From Nocardioides daeguensis (GTDB taxonomy: Bacteria > Actinomycetota > Actinomycetes > Propionibacteriales > Nocardioidaceae): DNA of 64,000 nucleotides. The DNA is taken from NCBI RefSeq assembly GCF_019192965.1, contig NZ_JAHTKU010000014.1:1-64000 (forward strand), in the 5' to 3' direction. The notes under the pieces are model-generated. The model did not search any database, had not been told where the DNA came from, and saw nothing but the letters and a program-made list of their open reading frames with translations. A program made the position numbers and the translations under genes. Positions 13,491-64,000 of the stretch are shown here, one piece after another (the stretch's first letter is position 1; each line of letters starts with the position of its first letter).

Positions 13491-14105
13491 CTACTTCCAG
13501 GCGACCGACGCCAGCACCGCGTCGAACCACTGCGGCGTGCGTGGGTCGTCGGCCTTGCCGTCCAGCACCAGCTCGACGAGGCTGCCCTCGACCTCGGCGG
13601 CCCAGGTGTAGCGCGTCATGCGCAGCGTCGCGTCGAACTCGTTGGCCGTGGTGGTGCTGGCGGTGATGCCCTCGACGCCGTCGACCACCCGGTTGTCGCC
13701 CCGTACGAGCGGCGGGTCCAGCTCGGTGCGGTCGCCGACGCCTACCGCCTCGGCGACCTCGTCGAGCCCGTCGGTCGCGTTGCCCATGACCTTCGACTCG
13801 TAGACCGCCATGGTCCAGTAGTCCGGCGTCTCCCGGTAGCTGGCCTGGGTCCGGCCGTCGCCGTCGAGCTCCCAGTCCCCGTTGGGGAGCCGGAAGGACA
13901 CCAGCGGTGTCTCGATCGTGCGTCCGGTGGCGGCCGGTGACGGCGCGGAGGCGGTGGGGCTGGGTGCGGCGCTGCCCGTGGACGCGTCGGCAGCGGGCGA
14001 CCGGCTCGGCGAGGGCGACGGGTCGCCCCCGTCCTGGCAGGCGCCGAGGAGCAGGGCGAGGCAGGCGCCGGCGGCGAGGAGTCCGGTCCGGGTACGACGT
14101 CTCAA
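13491..14105 (-). CDS. Putative lipoprotein of unknown function
   Basis: The protein has 204 residues. A lipoprotein signal peptide reads LRRRTRTGLLAAGACLALLLGAC, with the lipobox LLLGAC and acylated Cys at about residue 23. A Ser/Pro/Ala linker of about 35 residues follows, then a compact domain (LVSFRLPNGDWELD, YTWAAEVEGSLVELVLDG). The start is a TTG near a weak AAAGG, because no ATG or GTG lies in frame close to the signal peptide. It is therefore an extracytoplasmic membrane-anchored protein. The layout resembles another lipoprotein in the window (24601-25275), but I recognise no enzyme motif in either. Confidence 0.75.
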   Translation of the reverse strand: MRRRTRTGLLAAGACLALLLGACQDGGDPSPSPSRSPAADASTGSAAPSPTASAPSPAATGRTIETPLVSFRLPNGDWELDGDGRTQASYRETPDYWTMAVYESKVMGNATDGLDEVAEAVGVGDRTELDPPLVRGDNRVVDGVEGITASTTTANEFDATLRMTRYTWAAEVEGSLVELVLDGKADDPRTPQWFDAVLASVAWK

Positions 14106-14270
14106 GGCACCGGCCTTTCCGAGAGGGGGAGCCGCCAGCGTAGGCGGCCGGTCGCGGGTGGAGGAACTTCGGGTCGGGGGGTGTAAGGGTCGGGGGGCGG
14201 GGGAAGGCCATCGGGAGACCATGCTGCGCGGCCGGTGCCCGCGCGCCTCTCGGGAAGGAACCAGCCGCCG

Positions 14271-14747
14271 ATGTTGCCGCAGTTCATCACCGACTTCACA
14301 GCCGCGGCGGTGAAGGCCTCGCCGAAGGGCATCGCCGTCGTCGAGCAGGCCATCCAGGAGGCGATCGACGAGATCAACCGGATGATGCCGATGATCGACC
14401 CCGAGGAGTTCAGCGCCGACGCCTTCATCCCGAAGTCCGCCTTCGGTGCGGCCGAGCGCTCGCCGCTGGTCGCCCTCCACCACGCCAAGGCCCATGCCGT
14501 CATGCGCGACACCCTCGTGGGGGTCGTGACCGACCTCGAGAACTTCAAGGCCGCCTGCGTCGCGGCCCGCGACGGCTTCGTCGAGGTCGACACCGACGCC
14601 CGGACCGAGCTCAACGCGCGAGTGAACGCGATCACCGCGCTCGGCAACGCCGACACCGGCAACGCCGATGACGCCTACCACCAGGCGGTCTACGACAACG
14701 CGAACGCCCAGGCGAGCGAGACCAACCCCGACGAGCAGGAGGGCTGA
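14271..14747 (+). CDS. Small helical protein, possible type VII secretion-associated substrate
   Basis: The protein has 158 residues with no signal peptide or membrane segment. It is mainly helical, with a disordered acidic tail ending NPDEQEG. GGGAAGGA precedes the ATG (MLPQFITDF) by 11 bases. The second gene starts three bases after the stop. Size, helix content and the partner (an N-terminal helical domain plus Pro/Gly-rich region) recall ESX/type VII secretion pairs, but I see no WXG motif. No secretion ATPase (EccC) or other ESX component is in the window. Function unassigned; the type VII idea is inference. Confidence 0.6.
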   Translation: MLPQFITDFTAAAVKASPKGIAVVEQAIQEAIDEINRMMPMIDPEEFSADAFIPKSAFGAAERSPLVALHHAKAHAVMRDTLVGVVTDLENFKAACVAARDGFVEVDTDARTELNARVNAITALGNADTGNADDAYHQAVYDNANAQASETNPDEQEG

Positions 14748-57288: not shown

Positions 57289-58092
57289 TCACGACGCCTG
57301 AGCGCGCTGCTTCGCGATGAACCTCGTGGCCATCTTGTTCACGAACACGGGCGAGAGCCGGCCGACCCGCCAGGCGATCCGGGCCTGCCGCGGCTCGATC
57401 ACGATCGCCTCGTCGGCGACGACCGCGGCGAGCACCCGGCGGGCGAGGACGTCCGGGTCGACGGGGCGCTTGACACCCTGGCCCTCGAGGTAGAAGTCGC
57501 GGCCCTTGAACCGGCCGATCTCGCCCTTGTCGAGGATCGGGGTGTCGACCGCGGCGGGGCACACGACGGTCACGCCGATACCGTGCCCGGCCGCCTCGGT
57601 GCGCAGCGCGAGGGAGAGCCCGACGACCGCGTGCTTGGTCGTGACGTACGACGTCATCAGGCCGGCTGCCATCAGCCCGCCCATCGAGGCGGTGTTCACG
57701 ATGTGCCCGCCGCCCTGGACGATCATCCGCGGGTACGCCGCATGCACGCCGTGGACGACGCCGCGGATGTTGACGTCGATGATCGCGTTCCACTGGGCGA
57801 GGGTGAGGTCCTCGGTGTCGCCGAGGAAGGTGATGCCGGCGTTGTTGAACATCAGGTCGATCCGGCCGTGCTCGGCGACGACCGCGTCGACCGCGGCCCG
57901 CACGTCCTCCGCCGAGGTCACGTCGACCTGCCGGGCGACCGCTGCGCCCGGGCCCACCGCCGATGCCGCCACGGCAGTGGCCGCGTCCAGGTCGAGGTCG
58001 GCGCACACGACGTACGCCCCGTCGGCGACCAGCGCCCGGACGAGGGAGGCGCCGATGCCGGAGCCGCCCCCGGTGACGACGGCGGTCCTCAC
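57289..58092 (-). CDS. Short-chain dehydrogenase/reductase (longer member)
   Basis: This NAD(P)-dependent SDR of 267 residues has the cofactor motif AVVTGGGSGIGASLVRAL, the structural MFNNAGITFLG, catalytic Ser in IVNTASMGGLMAAG and the Tyr-Lys pair in TSYVTTKHAVVGLS. CADLDLDAA suggests NAD preference. The GTG start (VRTAVVTGG) overlaps the stop of the upstream SDR as GTGA. The C-terminal ARIAWRVGRLSPVFVNKMAT extension is as in steroid or retinol-type SDRs. It probably oxidises an alcohol made in the divergent catabolic cluster. Confidence 0.9.
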   Translation of the reverse strand: MRTAVVTGGGSGIGASLVRALVADGAYVVCADLDLDAATAVAASAVGPGAAVARQVDVTSAEDVRAAVDAVVAEHGRIDLMFNNAGITFLGDTEDLTLAQWNAIIDVNIRGVVHGVHAAYPRMIVQGGGHIVNTASMGGLMAAGLMTSYVTTKHAVVGLSLALRTEAAGHGIGVTVVCPAAVDTPILDKGEIGRFKGRDFYLEGQGVKRPVDPDVLARRVLAAVVADEAIVIEPRQARIAWRVGRLSPVFVNKMATRFIAKQRAQAS

Positions 58093-58817
58093 GCGAACGC
58101 CTTCTCGACGAGGCCGACCAGGTCGGGGTAGCGCTTGAGGTGTGCCCCGCCGTTGATGTCGAGGGTCTCGCCGGTGATCCACGCAGCCTCGTCGGAGAGC
58201 AGGAACCGGATGGCGGCGGCGATCTCCGCGGGCTCGCCGGAGCGGCCGAGCGCGGTGTTCTCCAGGTAGTCCTCGCGCACGCCGGGGATGTCCATCGCGG
58301 GCGCGGTCAGCGGTGTCACGACCAGGCCGGGCGCGACCGCGTTGACCCGGACCCCGCGGCCGCCGAGCTCCAGCGCAGCCACCTCGGTGAGGGCGACCAG
58401 ACCCGCCTTCGAGGCGCAGTACGCCGCCAGGCCGGTGCCGGGCTGCCGGGCGTTGAGCGAGGACAGGGAGACCAGTGAGCCGCCGTCGGCGACCCGGCGA
58501 CCGGCGTGCTTGAGCACCAGGAATGCGCCGTTGAGGCAGACGTCGACGACCCGGCGCCACTGCGCGGCGTCGTGGTCGACGACCCGGGCCAGGGTGCTCA
58601 CGCCGGCGCAGTTCACCAGGCCGTGGAAGGCCCCGTGAGTGGCGACGACGCCGTCGAGGAGGGCCTGGACCGACGCCTCGTCGGTGACGTCGACGAAGGC
58701 GTCGGCGGCGGTGCCGGGCAGGTCCGCGACGACCACCTCGTGGTCCGCGGCGCGCAGGGCCCGGGCGGTGGCTGCCCCGATCCCCGACGCGCCCCCGATG
58801 ACGACCGATACCTGCAT
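58089..58817 (-). CDS. Short-chain dehydrogenase/reductase (first gene)
   Basis: This SDR of 242 residues has SVVIGGASGIGAATARAL for NAD(P), VNCAGVSTLARVV, Ser in LVSLSSLNARQPG and Tyr-x-x-x-Lys in AAYCASKAGLVALTE. ADLPGTAADAFVDV favours NAD. The conserved C-terminal TGETLDINGGAHLKRYPDL matches hydroxysteroid-type and 3-alpha-HSD-like members. AGGAGAGCTGCC precedes the ATG. It is first in the two-gene minus-strand operon and divergent from the FMO operon across palindromes that could be operators for both. Confidence 0.9.
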   Translation of the reverse strand: MQVSVVIGGASGIGAATARALRAADHEVVVADLPGTAADAFVDVTDEASVQALLDGVVATHGAFHGLVNCAGVSTLARVVDHDAAQWRRVVDVCLNGAFLVLKHAGRRVADGGSLVSLSSLNARQPGTGLAAYCASKAGLVALTEVAALELGGRGVRVNAVAPGLVVTPLTAPAMDIPGVREDYLENTALGRSGEPAEIAAAIRFLLSDEAAWITGETLDINGGAHLKRYPDLVGLVEKAFA

Positions 58818-58847
58818 GGCAGCTCTCCTGACATTCGTCTGAATCTG

Positions 58848-58861
58848 TTGACACGCGTCAA
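58848..58861. promoter_or_regulatory. TTGAC-N4-GTCAA palindrome
   Basis: TTGACACGCGTCAA lies in the divergent region, 31 bases upstream of the minus-strand SDR operon start. TetR-family proteins bind such sites, and a TetR gene lies in the divergent operon. Confidence 0.5.
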
Positions 58862-58874
58862 ATGGCAGCCATAA

Positions 58875-58890
58875 CGTGACGCTCGTCACG
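58875..58890. promoter_or_regulatory. CGTGACG-N2-CGTCACG palindrome
   Basis: Perfect 7-bp arms lie 50 bases before the FMO start. Together with the palindrome 14 bases away it makes a double operator between the divergent operons. Confidence 0.5.
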
Positions 58891-58939
58891 CGGGTTTGTC
58901 AAGGCTCCCCGGCGGGGGCCCGACGGGAAGGAAGCAACG

Positions 58940-60277
58940 ATGAGTGGTCCCACCGTCGCCGTGATCGGCGCGGGCATCAGCGGCCTGACGATGAGCAAGA
59001 TGCTCGCCGACTACGGCGTGGAGTTCGCGACCTTCGAGTCCTCGGACCGGGTCGGCGGCAACTGGGCGTTCGGCAACCCGAACGGGCACAGCAGCGCCTA
59101 CCGCTCGCTGCACATCGACACCTCGAAGCACCAGCTGTCCTTCAAGGACTTCCCGATGCCCGAGGAGTATCCCGACTTCCCGCACCACACCCAGGTCAAG
59201 GAGTACCTCGACAGCTACGCGGACGCCTTCGACATCCGCCGCAAGATCGAGTTCGAGAACGGCGTCGTCCACGCGCAACGGCATCCCGACGGCGGCTGGG
59301 AGCTCGAGACCGAGCGCACCGGCACCCGCCGCTTCGACGTCCTGCTGGTAGCCAACGGCCACCACTGGGACCCGCGCTTCGCCGACAAGCCGGGGGAGTT
59401 CACCGGCCTGACGATGCACTCGCACGCCTACATCGACCCGCGCACGCCGTACGACCTGACGGGCAAGCGGATCCTGATCATCGGTCTCGGCAACAGCGCC
59501 GCCGACATCGCCGTCGAGCTGTCCAGCAAGACCCTCGACAACGAGGTGGTCATCTCCACCCGGTCGAGCGCGTGGATCGTGCCGAAGTACTTCGCCGGCA
59601 AGCCGGCCGACAAGTACTACAAGACCTCGCCGCACATCCCCTTCGCGTGGCAGCGCAAGTTCGTCCAGATCATGCAGCCGATGACGGCCGGCCGGCCCGA
59701 GGACTACGGCCTGCCGACGCCCAACCACAAGTTCTTCGAGGCGCACCCGACGCAGTCGGTCGAGCTGCCGCTGCGGCTCGGCTCGGGCGACCTGCGCGCC
59801 AAGGGCGACATCGAGCGCTTCGACGCAGACACGGTGCACTTCGCCGACGGCACCTCGCAGGACTTCGACGTCGTCATCCACGCGACCGGCTACAACATCA
59901 CGTTCCCGTTCTTCGACGAGGACCTCATCAGCGCGCCGGAGAACCACATCCGTCTCTACAAGCGGATCTTCAAGCCCGGCTTCGACGACGTCGCCTTCAT
60001 CGGCTTCGCGCAGTCGACGCCGACGCTGTTCCCGTTCGTCGAGTGCCAGACCCGGCTCGTCGCGGCCTGGTTGGTCGGCCGCTACGCGCCGCCGAGCGAG
60101 GCCGAGATGGAGCGGGTGATCGACGAGGACCAGCACAAGTACACCGCCCACATGGTGCAGCGGCCACGGCACACCCAGCAGCTCGACTACTTCCTCTACG
60201 AGTACGACCTGCGCACCCGCGAGATCCCGGCCGGCCAGGCCCGCGCGGCGTCGGCGGCGTCGGCGGTGGCCCGGTGA
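58940..60277 (+). CDS. Flavin-containing monooxygenase
   Basis: This is an FAD/NADPH monooxygenase of 445 residues. The N-terminal FAD motif is VAVIGAGISGLTMSKML (GxGxxG), the FMO fingerprint is FTGLTMHSHAY (F-x-G-x-x-x-H-x-x-x-Y), and NADPH binding is at ILIIGLGNSAADIAVEL. The Tyr at the end of the fingerprint marks FMO rather than classical Baeyer-Villiger enzymes (Trp), though some FMO-type proteins do oxidise ketones. The ATG is preceded by GGAAGGAAGCAACG. It is the first gene of a coupled operon of at least five genes and probably starts degradation of a xenobiotic or lipid. Confidence 0.9.
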   Translation: MSGPTVAVIGAGISGLTMSKMLADYGVEFATFESSDRVGGNWAFGNPNGHSSAYRSLHIDTSKHQLSFKDFPMPEEYPDFPHHTQVKEYLDSYADAFDIRRKIEFENGVVHAQRHPDGGWELETERTGTRRFDVLLVANGHHWDPRFADKPGEFTGLTMHSHAYIDPRTPYDLTGKRILIIGLGNSAADIAVELSSKTLDNEVVISTRSSAWIVPKYFAGKPADKYYKTSPHIPFAWQRKFVQIMQPMTAGRPEDYGLPTPNHKFFEAHPTQSVELPLRLGSGDLRAKGDIERFDADTVHFADGTSQDFDVVIHATGYNITFPFFDEDLISAPENHIRLYKRIFKPGFDDVAFIGFAQSTPTLFPFVECQTRLVAAWLVGRYAPPSEAEMERVIDEDQHKYTAHMVQRPRHTQQLDYFLYEYDLRTREIPAGQARAASAASAVAR

Positions 60278-60903
60278 GCGACGAGCGCCTGTGGGCGCGG
60301 ATGGTCGACCGGCGCAGCGTCAACCGCGGCGACCAGCGGCGTACGGCCCTCCTCGAGGCGCTCGACGAGCTGCTCCGCGAGCAGACGCTCGAGGAGGTCA
60401 ACGTCGCCGAGATCTCCCGCCGTGCGGGCGTGACGCGCTCGGCGTTCTACTTCTACTTCGAGAGCAAGGCCACCGCCGTCCTGGCCCTGATGGCCGAGCT
60501 GTACGACGACGCGTCGGACGCGACCGACCTGCTGGTCAAGGCGGAGGGAGAGCCCCGGGCCCGGATCCGCCGGGTCGTCGCGACCCTGTTCGACTCGGTC
60601 GACAAGACGCCACACACCTACCGTGCGCTCCTCGAGGCGCGCGCCACCAGCACGGCGGTCCGCGAGCTGTGGGAGGCCGGGCGTGCCGAGTTCGCGGAGA
60701 TGACCGCGGAGATGATCGAGCGCGAGCGCGCCGTCGGCCACGCGCCGCCGGGCGCCGACGCCCACGTCCTCGCCGCCGTCCTCCTCGACCTCAACGACCA
60801 CGCCGTCGAGCGGCACGCGATGGGCGTCGGCCCCGAGCGCGAGGCCCACATCGACGCGATCACCCACATCTGGATCCAGAGCATCTACGGGAGCCCGGCA
60901 TGA
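60274..60903 (+). CDS. TetR-family transcriptional regulator
   Basis: The protein has 209 residues. The TetR helix-turn-helix is VNVAEISRRAGVTRSAFYFY at about 39-58, followed by FESKATAVLALMAELYDD, and the C-terminal helical ligand domain is normal. It overlaps the FMO stop with GTGA and is translated within the operon, an arrangement suiting local feedback. The palindromes at 58848 and 58875 are plausible targets. The ligand is unknown but is probably the operon substrate or a CoA ester. Confidence 0.9.
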   Translation: MSDERLWARMVDRRSVNRGDQRRTALLEALDELLREQTLEEVNVAEISRRAGVTRSAFYFYFESKATAVLALMAELYDDASDATDLLVKAEGEPRARIRRVVATLFDSVDKTPHTYRALLEARATSTAVRELWEAGRAEFAEMTAEMIERERAVGHAPPGADAHVLAAVLLDLNDHAVERHAMGVGPEREAHIDAITHIWIQSIYGSPA

Positions 60904-61847
60904 GCACCGTCTTCGACTTCACCTCGGCCGGCGTGCGCTGCGCCGCCACCCACTTCGCCCCGCCGGTGGTCGAGGAGCGAGCGCGCCTCGAAACCGGCGC
61001 TCCGGTCGTCGTCCTGGCGCACGGCCTCGCCGGCACCCAGGACGCCGGTGTGTTCCCGTTCGCCGAGGCCTTCGCTGCGGCCGGACTGCACGCGGTCACC
61101 TTCGACTACCGCGGCTTCGGCGGCTCCGACGCCGCCGACGGTGAGCCGCGCCAGGTCGTCTCGCTCGCCGGGCAGGTCGCCGACCTCCACGCGGCCGTCG
61201 ACGCCGCGAAGTGCCTGCCCGGCGTCGACCCGACCCGGGTCGTGCTGTGGGGCGTCTCGCTGGGAGGTGGTCACGTCGTCTCGGTCGCCGCCGAGCGAGA
61301 CGACATCACGGCCGTCGTGTCGGTGGTCCCGATGGTCGACGGCCTCGCGGCCGCCCGCCTGGCCACCCAGCACCACCGGCCCAGCCAGCTGCTGGCCTCG
61401 ACGGGCCGCGGCCTCGCGAGCGCCTTCCGACGCAAGGTCGGCCGCAGGCCCGCGATGATCCCCGTCGTGGCCCACCCCGGCGAGACCGGTGCGCTGACCC
61501 TGCCGGGCGCCTACGAGGACTACCTGGCGATCGCCGGTCCGACCTGGCGCAACGAGATCGCCGCCGACGTCGTCCTGGAGCTCGGTACCCGGGCGCCCGC
61601 GAAGGCGGCGTCCCGGCTGGAGGTCCCCTGGCTGGTCCAGGTAGCCGACTTCGACCGCAGCGCCCCGCTGCAGGCCGCGATGAAGGCGGCCGTCGCGGGC
61701 CGCGCCGAGGTCCGGCACTACCCGGGCGACCACTTCGACCTGTTCGCGGGCAAGCCCTTCCACGAGCCCGCCGTCGAGCACGCCCTCCACTTCCTGTTGC
61801 GCCACCTCACGGTCACCTCGCCCGTGCTGGAGCCGGCCCGTGGCTGA
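60900..61847 (+). CDS. Alpha/beta hydrolase
   Basis: This alpha/beta hydrolase of 315 residues has the nucleophile elbow VLWGVSLGGGHVVSVA (G-x-S-x-G), an oxyanion-hole HGLAGTQDAG, and a late catalytic His in HYPGDHFDLFAGKPF. The Asp is probably in VQVADFDRSAP. It belongs to the DLH/Hydrolase_4-like group and resembles esterases. The ATG overlaps the TetR stop as ATGA. In this operon it might hydrolyse an ester or lactone formed by the monooxygenase. Confidence 0.85.
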   Translation: MSTVFDFTSAGVRCAATHFAPPVVEERARLETGAPVVVLAHGLAGTQDAGVFPFAEAFAAAGLHAVTFDYRGFGGSDAADGEPRQVVSLAGQVADLHAAVDAAKCLPGVDPTRVVLWGVSLGGGHVVSVAAERDDITAVVSVVPMVDGLAAARLATQHHRPSQLLASTGRGLASAFRRKVGRRPAMIPVVAHPGETGALTLPGAYEDYLAIAGPTWRNEIAADVVLELGTRAPAKAASRLEVPWLVQVADFDRSAPLQAAMKAAVAGRAEVRHYPGDHFDLFAGKPFHEPAVEHALHFLLRHLTVTSPVLEPARG

Positions 61848-63429
61848 CACCGTCCAGGGCCTGCTCCTGGCCCACGCGGAACGCGACACCGCCGGACTGC
61901 GGTACGACGAGCGCACCTGGACGTGGCGCGAGGTCGTCGCCGGTGCCGCGGCCCGGGCGCACGTGCTGCGCGCGATGGCCGACGAGGAGAGGCCGCTCCA
62001 CGTCGGCGTCCTGCTGCCGAACGGCCCGGAGATGGCGCTCGCGATCTCGGCCGGAGCGATCGGCGGGCACGTCACGGTCGGCATCAACGGGACCCGGCGC
62101 GGCGGGGCGCTCGCCTCCGACGTACGCCGGGCCGACTGCCAGGTCGTGCTCACCGACAGCGCGCACCGGCCGCTGCTCGAGGGCCTGGACCTCGGCGGCG
62201 CGACGGTGGTCGACACCGACGCCGTGGCCTGGCCGGCGCTCGTCGCGGCGGCGCCGACGACCACCGACGGGTTCCCGGTCGCGACGACCACGGACACCTT
62301 CATGCTCATCTTCACCTCGGGCACGAGCGGTGAGCCGAAGGCCGTGCAGGTCGCGAACTTCATGGTCGTGATGGCCGGATCGGTGCTCGTCGACAAGTAC
62401 GGCCTCGGTCCCGACGACGTCGTCTACTGCTCGATGCCGATGTTCCACAGCAACGCGGTCATGGCCGGCTTCGCCGTCAGCGCCGCCTCCGGCGCCGCGC
62501 TGGCCGTGGCCGAGTTCTCCGCGCGCGGCTTCCTCGCCGACGTCCGGCGCCACGGCGCGACGTACCTCAACTACGTCGGCAAGCCGCTCGCCTACGTCCT
62601 GGCGACCCCGGCGCAGCCGGACGACGCGGACAACCCGCTGCGCTTCGCGTTCGGCAACGAGGCCTCCGACCGCGACATCCGCGAGTTCGCGCAGCGCTTC
62701 GGGTGCTCGGTGTGGGACGGCTTCGGCTCGACCGAGTCGGCGATCATCATCACCCGCACCGAGGAGACGCCGGCCGGCTCGATCGGCGTCCCGTTCGACG
62801 GGGTGGCGGTCTACGACCGGGGCACCCGGACGGAGTGCCCGCGCGCCGAGTACGACGCCGAGGGCCGGGTCACGAACCTCGACGAGGCGGTCGGCGAGCT
62901 GGTCAACACCCAGGGCGCGGGCTTCTTCGCCGGCTACTACAACGACGACGAGGCGACGGCCGAGCGCCTCGACGGCGGCATGTACTGGTCCGGCGACCTC
63001 GCCTACCGCGACGCCGACGGCTTCGTCTTCCTGGCCGGCCGCACCGACGACTGGCTGCGCGTAGACGGTGAGAACCTCGCCGCCGCGCCGGTCGAGCAGC
63101 TGCTGCTGCGCCACGAGGCGATCTCCCAGGCGGCCGTGTACGCCGTCACCGACGAGCGGGTGGGCGACCAGCTGATGTGCGCGCTGGTGCTCCGGGAGGG
63201 CGCGACGCTGGCGCCCGAGGAGCTCGCGGCCTTCCTCGCCGCCCAGCCCGACCTGTCGCCGAAGGGCTGGCCGCGGCACGTGCGGATCGCGAAGGCGCTG
63301 CCGAGCACCGCGACCAACAAGGTCCTCAAGCGCGAGCTGCGTGCCCAGGGACTGGCCACCGCCGACCTGCTCTGGTCGCGGGGCGAACGGGACCATGTCT
63401 ACGCCGAACAGGTCAGGAGCAAGCCATGA
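61840..63429 (+). CDS. Acyl-CoA synthetase/ligase (FadD17-like)
   Basis: This AMP-forming ligase of 529 residues has the P-loop FMLIFTSGTSGEPKAVQV, the adenylate region VWDGFGSTESAIIITR, and YWSGDLAYRDADGFVFLAGRTDDWLRVDGENL (in parts) with the conserved Asp and Arg; the catalytic Lys is in STATNKVLKREL. It activates the carboxylate released by the hydrolase or an imported acid. The GTG start overlaps the hydrolase gene by 8 bases. The resemblance to mycobacterial FadD17/FadD19-type ligases suggests steroid or branched lipid substrates; that is inference. Confidence 0.88.
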   Translation: MADTVQGLLLAHAERDTAGLRYDERTWTWREVVAGAAARAHVLRAMADEERPLHVGVLLPNGPEMALAISAGAIGGHVTVGINGTRRGGALASDVRRADCQVVLTDSAHRPLLEGLDLGGATVVDTDAVAWPALVAAAPTTTDGFPVATTTDTFMLIFTSGTSGEPKAVQVANFMVVMAGSVLVDKYGLGPDDVVYCSMPMFHSNAVMAGFAVSAASGAALAVAEFSARGFLADVRRHGATYLNYVGKPLAYVLATPAQPDDADNPLRFAFGNEASDRDIREFAQRFGCSVWDGFGSTESAIIITRTEETPAGSIGVPFDGVAVYDRGTRTECPRAEYDAEGRVTNLDEAVGELVNTQGAGFFAGYYNDDEATAERLDGGMYWSGDLAYRDADGFVFLAGRTDDWLRVDGENLAAAPVEQLLLRHEAISQAAVYAVTDERVGDQLMCALVLREGATLAPEELAAFLAAQPDLSPKGWPRHVRIAKALPSTATNKVLKRELRAQGLATADLLWSRGERDHVYAEQVRSKP

Positions 63430-64000
63430 GCTACGACGTCATCGTCCGGGGAGGGCGCTGGTTCGACGGGACCGGGGCGCCGTCCGCCGTCCGCGACCTC
63501 GGGATCCGCGAGGGCCGCGTCGTCGCGGTCTCCGCGGAGGAGCTCGACGCCACCGACTGCCCCCGCGTCATCGACGCGCGCGGACGCTGGGTGCTGCCGG
63601 GCATGGTCGACATCCACACCCACTACGACGTCGAGGTGCTCGTCCAGCCCTCGCTGTCGGAGTCGCTGCGCCACGGCGTCACCACGACCTTCCTCGGCTC
63701 GTGCTCGCTGTCGACCGTGCACGCCGCACCCGAGGATGCCGGCGACCTGTTCGGCCGGGTCGAGGCGATCCCGCGGCCGTACGTCGTCGGCGCGCTCGAC
63801 GACCTGAAGACCTGGTCGAGCGCGGGGGAGTACGTCGCCGCGCTCGAGGAGCTCCCCCTCGGCCCCAACATCGCCGCCTTCATCGGCCACTCCGACATCC
63901 GCTCCGCGCGGATGGGTCTGTCCCGCTCGACCGACCCCGCCGTGCGGCCGACCGCGGCCGAGCTGGCCCGGATGGAGGCCGACCTGGTCGACGCCCTCGA
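63426..64000 (+). CDS. Amidohydrolase (N-acyl-D-amino acid deacylase family), cut by window edge
   Basis: This N-terminal fragment of 191 codons continues past the right edge. The start is an ATG overlapping the ligase stop as ATGA. DVIVRGGRWFDGTGAPSAVR is the typical beginning of amidohydrolase 3 proteins, and MVDIHTHYDVEVLVQPSL carries the His-x-His metal ligands with the Asp. HGVTTTFLGSCSLS follows as in D-aminoacylase and related amidohydrolases. It forms part of the FMO operon. The catalytic C-terminal part is not visible, so its substrate cannot be judged. Confidence 0.85.
   Translation, partial: MSYDVIVRGGRWFDGTGAPSAVRDLGIREGRVVAVSAEELDATDCPRVIDARGRWVLPGMVDIHTHYDVEVLVQPSLSESLRHGVTTTFLGSCSLSTVHAAPEDAGDLFGRVEAIPRPYVVGALDDLKTWSSAGEYVAALEELPLGPNIAAFIGHSDIRSARMGLSRSTDPAVRPTAAELARMEADLVDAL

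Follow-up and report, generated by a model that had tools for sequence, protein, structure and literature searches.

A candidate repressible alcohol and ketone degradation unit in Nocardioides daeguensis, centred on an FMO-fold monooxygenase with a BVMO-type aspartate

The right-hand end of a 64,000-nucleotide stretch of Nocardioides daeguensis DNA (the window: positions 1–64000 of contig C36, NZ_JAHTKU010000014.1, in a 4.66-Mb genome of 41 contigs) carries a divergent gene cluster that probably encodes a repressible pathway for alcohol and ketone degradation, in which a flavin-containing monooxygenase (FMO) resembling the Baeyer-Villiger monooxygenases (BVMOs) would be governed by an EthR-like TetR regulator. 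The unit is a real, widely conserved and ordinary-looking catabolic cluster whose oxygenase signature is unusual and whose operator is legible across dozens of related genomes. From the protein families, gene order, conservation, residue signature and operator footprint observed here, we infer a sequence of reactions, their repression and its relief by a ligand, as follows. Two short-chain dehydrogenases (SDRs) would convert a secondary alcohol into a ketone, beside whose carbonyl the FMO would insert oxygen (Baeyer-Villiger oxidation) to give an ester or lactone; a hydrolase would cleave this product to an acid, and a FadD1-type ligase would convert the acid to a CoA thioester destined for beta-oxidation. 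The operon-encoded TetR would occupy TGACN4GTCA sites at the −35 element, the transcription start and the divergent SDR promoter, and be released by a pathway ligand.

What determines whether an FMO performs Baeyer-Villiger or N-/S-oxidation is an open question in which a network of residues has been implicated (passages of PMC9950137 and PMC10682829). We regard it as an evenly balanced proposition that the window FMO represents a Baeyer-Villiger lineage not yet recognised within the FMO family. Such enzymes would combine a BVMO-type Asp and a longer, BVMO-like loop with the scaffold of an FMO; at least two branches would have paired separately with ester hydrolases whose folds are unrelated, and the present one would be controlled by an EthR-like repressor with a legible operator. 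Comparing the wild type with D60N in this natural branch, where the Asp at the key position never varies, would test the Baeyer-Villiger determinant directly, and the operator footprint offers a ready reporter for the ligand of an EthR-like regulator, hence for the pathway substrate, in non-pathogenic actinobacteria.

Organisation and conservation of the unit

The layout given in a preliminary description of this DNA, two minus-strand SDR genes facing five overlapping plus-strand genes, was borne out in its coordinates and overlaps. SDR2, an NAD(P)-dependent enzyme with a YxxxK motif (57289–58092, minus strand; PF00106, 169.7 bits), shares four bases, a GTGA overlap, with SDR1 (58089–58817, minus strand; PF13561, 186.6 bits), which is divergent from the gene for the FMO-fold class B flavoprotein monooxygenase (58940–60277, plus strand; PF00743, 259.6 bits against a cut-off of 22). 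A second GTGA overlap joins the FMO to the TetR-family gene (60274–60903, plus strand), which is linked by ATGA to that of an alpha/beta hydrolase, likely an esterase or lactonase (60900–61847, plus strand; PF12146, 53.2 bits), whose GxSxG, Asp and His motifs are conserved over 107 rows. The hydrolase overlaps the FadD1-type acyl-CoA ligase (61840–63429, plus strand) by eight bases, and FadD in turn overlaps an amidohydrolase of the D-aminoacylase type by ATGA (from 63426 to the window edge at 64000 and on to contig position 65180, plus strand; PF07969, 56.0 bits). The expectation that the unit continues past the window held only for this last gene, which stops 1,180 bases beyond the edge on a contig running 9.4 kb further, and whose frame is complete in locus L009. 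The next gene, encoding a heme oxygenase (65165–65908), lies convergently on the opposite strand, so that the plus-strand operon comprises five genes.

Conservation was assessed in 80 named loci, the best of 309 actinobacterial matches in a scan with the FMO, some of which end early at contig ends, and in 29 further loci of the same family, which are best matches rather than a random sample and exclude the window's own. The hydrolase directly follows the FMO in 79 of the 80 named loci (the exception being L101) and in all 29 family relatives. Other members are less constant: FadD follows the pair in 28/80, and the SDR1 homologue is divergent in 29/80 and downstream of the FMO in 32/80, the latter placement occurring in many Mycobacteriales loci. 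Some FMO is detected at E ≤ 1e-60 in 66 of 149 family genomes, and in a phylum-wide sample ten of 296 genomes (its own included) match the FMO at E ≤ 1e-112. The FMO of Pimelobacter simplex ATCC 6946 is 94% identical to that of the window. Among the papers listed in a literature search, none dealt with an FMO-TetR-hydrolase-FadD unit, which does not prove that none exists.

DNA comparisons show that the history of the FMO gene differs from that of its neighbours. Relative to Nocardioides sp. Root240 (L070), the flanking genes are 85–92% identical and the FMO 81%, its middle (window 59200–60270) falling to 65–68%; relative to Actinomadura sp. 7K507 (L042), the FMO is 90% identical (window 58940–60277) and the other shared genes 79–81%. 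This suggests that the FMO may have been exchanged alone, apart from its neighbour genes.

An EthR-like regulator and its operator

The TetR protein contains both EthR-type domains, scoring 91.8 bits against PF21313 (cut-off 27) and 37.7 bits, again above cut-off, against the TetR helix-turn-helix model, and its best solved relative is EthR itself (E 1.1e-24, over nearly the whole length). Two palindromes had been described between the divergent arms and connected with this regulator, and both are present with a TGACN4GTCA core. The main putative operator, TTGACACGCGTCAA (58848–58861), is symmetric at 12 of 14 positions and overlaps a −35 hexamer, TTGACA (58848–58853), while the second, CGTGACGCTCGTCACG (58875–58890), coincides with the expected transcription start. 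An imperfect third copy, TGACATTCGTCT (58829–58840), lies 20 bases upstream of the main site. The corresponding −10 hexamer, TAACGT (58872–58877, plus strand), follows the −35 after an 18-base spacer; a TANNNT element occurs 17–19 bases after the −35 in 52 of 55 loci, where 1.3 would be expected. A consensus promoter and terminator scan of 58700–59000 found none, and the FMO promoter is predicted purely from its conservation across loci.

The raw count of TGACN4GTCA in the window (three, two of them in the gap between SDR1 and the FMO) is weak evidence, since six of 100 whole-window shuffles reach three or more. The palindromes stand above chance because they are conserved across loci and because the 14-mer TTGACNCGNGTCAA has a single location in the 4.66-Mb genome. 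Excluding the window's own copy, TGACN4GTCA is found no more than 300 bases upstream of the FMO in 55 of the 56 other loci with an EthR-like TetR and in none of the 53 without one, where shuffling predicts 0.41 of 57 and 0.35 of 53, respectively. Removal of near-identical rows at 95, 85 and 80% FMO identity preserves this pattern (44/45, 21/22 and 13/13 with the regulator; 0/38, 0/17 and 0/7 without), as do held-out loci (2/2 and 0/15). The consensus is TTGACRCGTGTCAA, from which the window copy differs by one base. Paired sites at 27–28-base spacing recur in 18 loci of this set of 56, which also contains 19 cases of a looser TGACN4GTCG copy 20 bases before the main site. In view of this co-occurrence the two palindromes are the most likely targets of the TetR, and the simplest reading is that it would serve as a repressor seated on the −35 and the start site. 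Control by KstR was also considered, and no such regulator or site was noticed on reading the 122-base gap, for which no scan was run.

The 53 loci without an EthR-like TetR appear to have a different switch. Another, divergent TetR is present in 41 of them (recognised by PF00440 only, with one member scanned), and the palindrome ACAG-N10-CTGT occurs in 28 of the 53, 26 of these 28 having the other TetR, against an expectation of 0.16 and a single occurrence among the 57 loci of the EthR-like group. In these loci (L059–L120) regulator and operator thus change jointly, and the FMO-hydrolase core stays.

A BVMO-type aspartate on an FMO scaffold

The window FMO, 445 residues long with an FAD motif from residue 5, belongs to the FMO-like family by its PF00743 score. 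AncFMO5 is its nearest solved sequence, and structure matches retrieve solved FMOs first (Z 28.5–21.2 over ranks 1–34), with BVMOs at about 19. According to passages of PMC10682829, a residue dyad above the flavin has Leu or Ile at its first position in all Baeyer-Villiger performers, and at its second mostly Asn in FMO clades I–III (with sparse Thr, His and Val) or Gln in clade IV and NMOs, Asp being named for BVMOs only. The window dyad, Ile59-Asp60, aligns on AncFMO5 Ile61-Asn62, and the FMO-typical Asn or Gln at position 62 is thus replaced by the Asp characteristic of type I BVMOs, a column assigned through the AncFMO5 alignment and the same passages. Both Ile59 and Asp60 are kept in 111/111 rows of the branch alignment, which includes two rows of the window's own protein. 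His269, likewise in 111/111 rows, aligns with AncFMO5 His282; according to part of PMC10028610, replacing that His by Glu eliminated Baeyer-Villiger activity.

Among 31 paralogue rows, residue 60 is Asp in 13, Asn in 16 and Ile in two, and the fingerprint loop is longer by three residues in all 13 Asp paralogues (one of which, L137_8963, is the same gene as core-set L037) and in none of the 18 others. The later phylum sample behaves similarly: the longer loop accompanies Asp in 6/6 rows and is found in 0/4 Asn rows. Asp at residue 60 in six of these ten new matches places Asp types in at least six of the 296 genomes, counting the window's own, and the true figure may be higher because each genome contributed few scored candidates. 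In the phylogenetic tree the Asn/Ile types group with AncFMO5 and 8z12 (support 99/99) and a sister Asp branch is well supported (99/100); the core Asp group has a support of only 82/99 and leaves L128 outside, and the placement of PAMO is unsure.

The sister Asp-type FMOs (n = 11, 45–47% identical to the window FMO) provide a second association with a hydrolase, since ten of the 11 have a PF00144 serine hydrolase gene immediately upstream in the same orientation, the exception being L137_4514. No such gene is near any of the 18 Asn/Ile-type FMOs, and alpha/beta-hydrolase models match at most three of the 59 open reading frames around these, among the families listed (25/59). In the phylum sample one or other hydrolase is found within 1.5 kb in four of six Asp-type loci versus none of four Asn types. 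PF00144 also spans beta-lactamases and peptidases, so that an esterase role for the sister-branch enzyme is presumptive. That two Asp branches each adjoin a hydrolase, and that these hydrolases are of unrelated fold, is the strongest indication that an ester may be the product. Locus L137 carries both kinds of Asp-type FMO no more than 6 kb apart in one genome (4514–6049 and 8963–10321), and the first of these is without the PF00144 hydrolase that its sisters have.

Competing explanations

The identity of the ligase invites a steroid interpretation, in which the unit would serve side-chain or ring catabolism of steroids or sterols, its ketone and the acid on which FadD1 acts both being steroidal. 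FadD narrowly passes the FadD1 model NF009927 (804.0, cut-off 800), followed by FadD17 (NF005897, 594.9, cut-off 850) and the steroid-22-oyl-CoA synthetase CasI (NF052587, 542.6, cut-off 900), both below their cut-offs. This kinship with steroid-acid CoA ligases suggests a bulky acid, although it is only a hint that the substrate may be bulky, steroid-like or other. In contig C30, a FadD paralogue (73% DNA identity) has a KshA_C-type Rieske oxygenase nearby. Against this, no other steroid gene is found in the operon with Pfam and NCBIfam models, and the neighbourhoods of carriers, judged from partly annotated families present in at least five loci, have no recurring steroid gene family. In its main text, a Nocardioides simplex phytosterol transcriptome study (PMC7807495) names no such unit in the portions covered, and neither 'Baeyer' nor 'amidohydrolase' is among the text places listed (12 of 30). 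We consider the steroid interpretation unlikely. The contig C30 locus (L010, 5175–11549) is itself a steroid-type cluster, with the KshA_C oxygenase, a FAD/ferredoxin-type reductase, an acyl-CoA dehydrogenase and the FadD1-like ligase.

A second alternative is that the FMO is an ordinary N-/S-oxygenase in which an Asn-to-Asp change is tolerated; the substrate of the hydrolase and ligase would then be the ester of a different compound or the oxygenated product itself. The nearest relatives of the scaffold are indeed DiatB and ancestral mammalian FMOs rather than type I BVMOs, and several observations speak for this alternative or otherwise count against the Baeyer-Villiger proposal. The type I BVMO fingerprint FxGxxxHxxxW[P/D] is absent, the branch having FxGxxxHxHxY with Phe154 in 110/111 rows and Tyr164 in place of the BVMO Trp in 111/111. 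No clear counterpart of the catalytic BVMO Arg, which reaches the flavin, was identified in a predicted model that is weak near the site. MAFFT and hidden Markov model alignment to PAMO did not put Asp60 on PAMO Asp66, owing to a length difference before the site, and the AlphaFold model has pLDDT below 50 at residues 42–62, too weak to place Asp60 by the flavin. His269 does not discriminate either: 17 of the 18 Asn/Ile-type paralogues share it, so that it fits Baeyer-Villiger activity but is not a diagnostic feature of it. Changing the dyad Asn abolished mFMO activity (from the part of PMC10682829 on this enzyme), and a crystal structure exists of the Asn78Asp mFMO mutant (2xlr), so that Asp alone is not plainly sufficient. 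Neither hydrolase is found within 1.5 kb in two of the six Asp-type loci of the phylum sample (L153 and L155), and one locus with an EthR-like TetR, L037, is without an exact operator. However, a merely tolerated change would fit poorly with an Asp60 that is invariant and tied to the longer loop, and with two hydrolases of unrelated fold that adjoin the two Asp branches and rarely the Asn types. On balance N-/S-oxygenation appears improbable, and a Baeyer-Villiger reaction remains our favoured assignment.

A pathway for amides or N-acyl compounds in which the amidohydrolase performs the key step is very improbable and was rejected as the core function: this enzyme overlaps FadD and resembles N-acyl-D-glutamate deacylase (3gip, E 1.5e-25), but it occurs in only 5 of the 80 named loci, against 79 for the FMO-hydrolase pair. 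It is an accessory, lineage-specific addition, with HTH, GSCS and SDAGAH stretches conserved in six rows whose HxH, Cys and Asp motifs are presumably metal ligands. Of the catabolic order originally envisaged, the oxygenation, ester-cleavage and CoA-ligation steps retain support, as does chemistry on a ketone or lactone; amide hydrolysis as a core step does not.

Relation to known systems

In Mycobacterium tuberculosis ethA and ethR are divergent, and the mymA operon of the same organism combines a monooxygenase with a hydrolase, an SDR and FadD13. The EthA-EthR pair resembles the present system in that no solved protein is closer to the window TetR than EthR, and in that both regulators control, here putatively, a class B flavoprotein monooxygenase. 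Unlike the ethA/ethR arrangement, the window TetR sits inside the operon, and parts of PMC9044951 class EthA among the type I BVMOs, whereas the window FMO is of another branch. MymA is likewise a type I BVMO (same parts of PMC9044951), and the ligase and regulator of its operon differ from those of the window. A closer chemical parallel may be acmA-acmB of Gordonia sp. TY-5, encoding acetone monooxygenase and an esterase, where a secondary alcohol proceeds through ketone and ester to acid and monooxygenase and esterase share one operon (passages of PMC6215540); AcmA is a BVMO family member, whereas the window has an FMO-fold enzyme plus a CoA ligase.

FMO-like proteins capable of Baeyer-Villiger oxidation are known among the type II FMOs (FMO-E, -F and -G, PsFMO A–C and JsFMO; portions of PMC10028610), which carry about 160 extra residues at the N-terminus and a His-Asp pair, whereas the 445-residue window FMO has Ile-Asp and lacks such an extension. 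Mammalian FMO5, which performs Baeyer-Villiger oxidation (passages of PMC10682829), and AncFMO5 share with it the dyad Ile and the His of the 282 column, but have Asn at the second dyad position and a shorter fingerprint loop, where the window FMO has Asp and a longer one. Among the wider set of carriers, a zinc-type medium-chain dehydrogenase gene, identified by a scan of the L066 copy (13594–14613), lies downstream of the FMO unit in 16 Gordonia loci.

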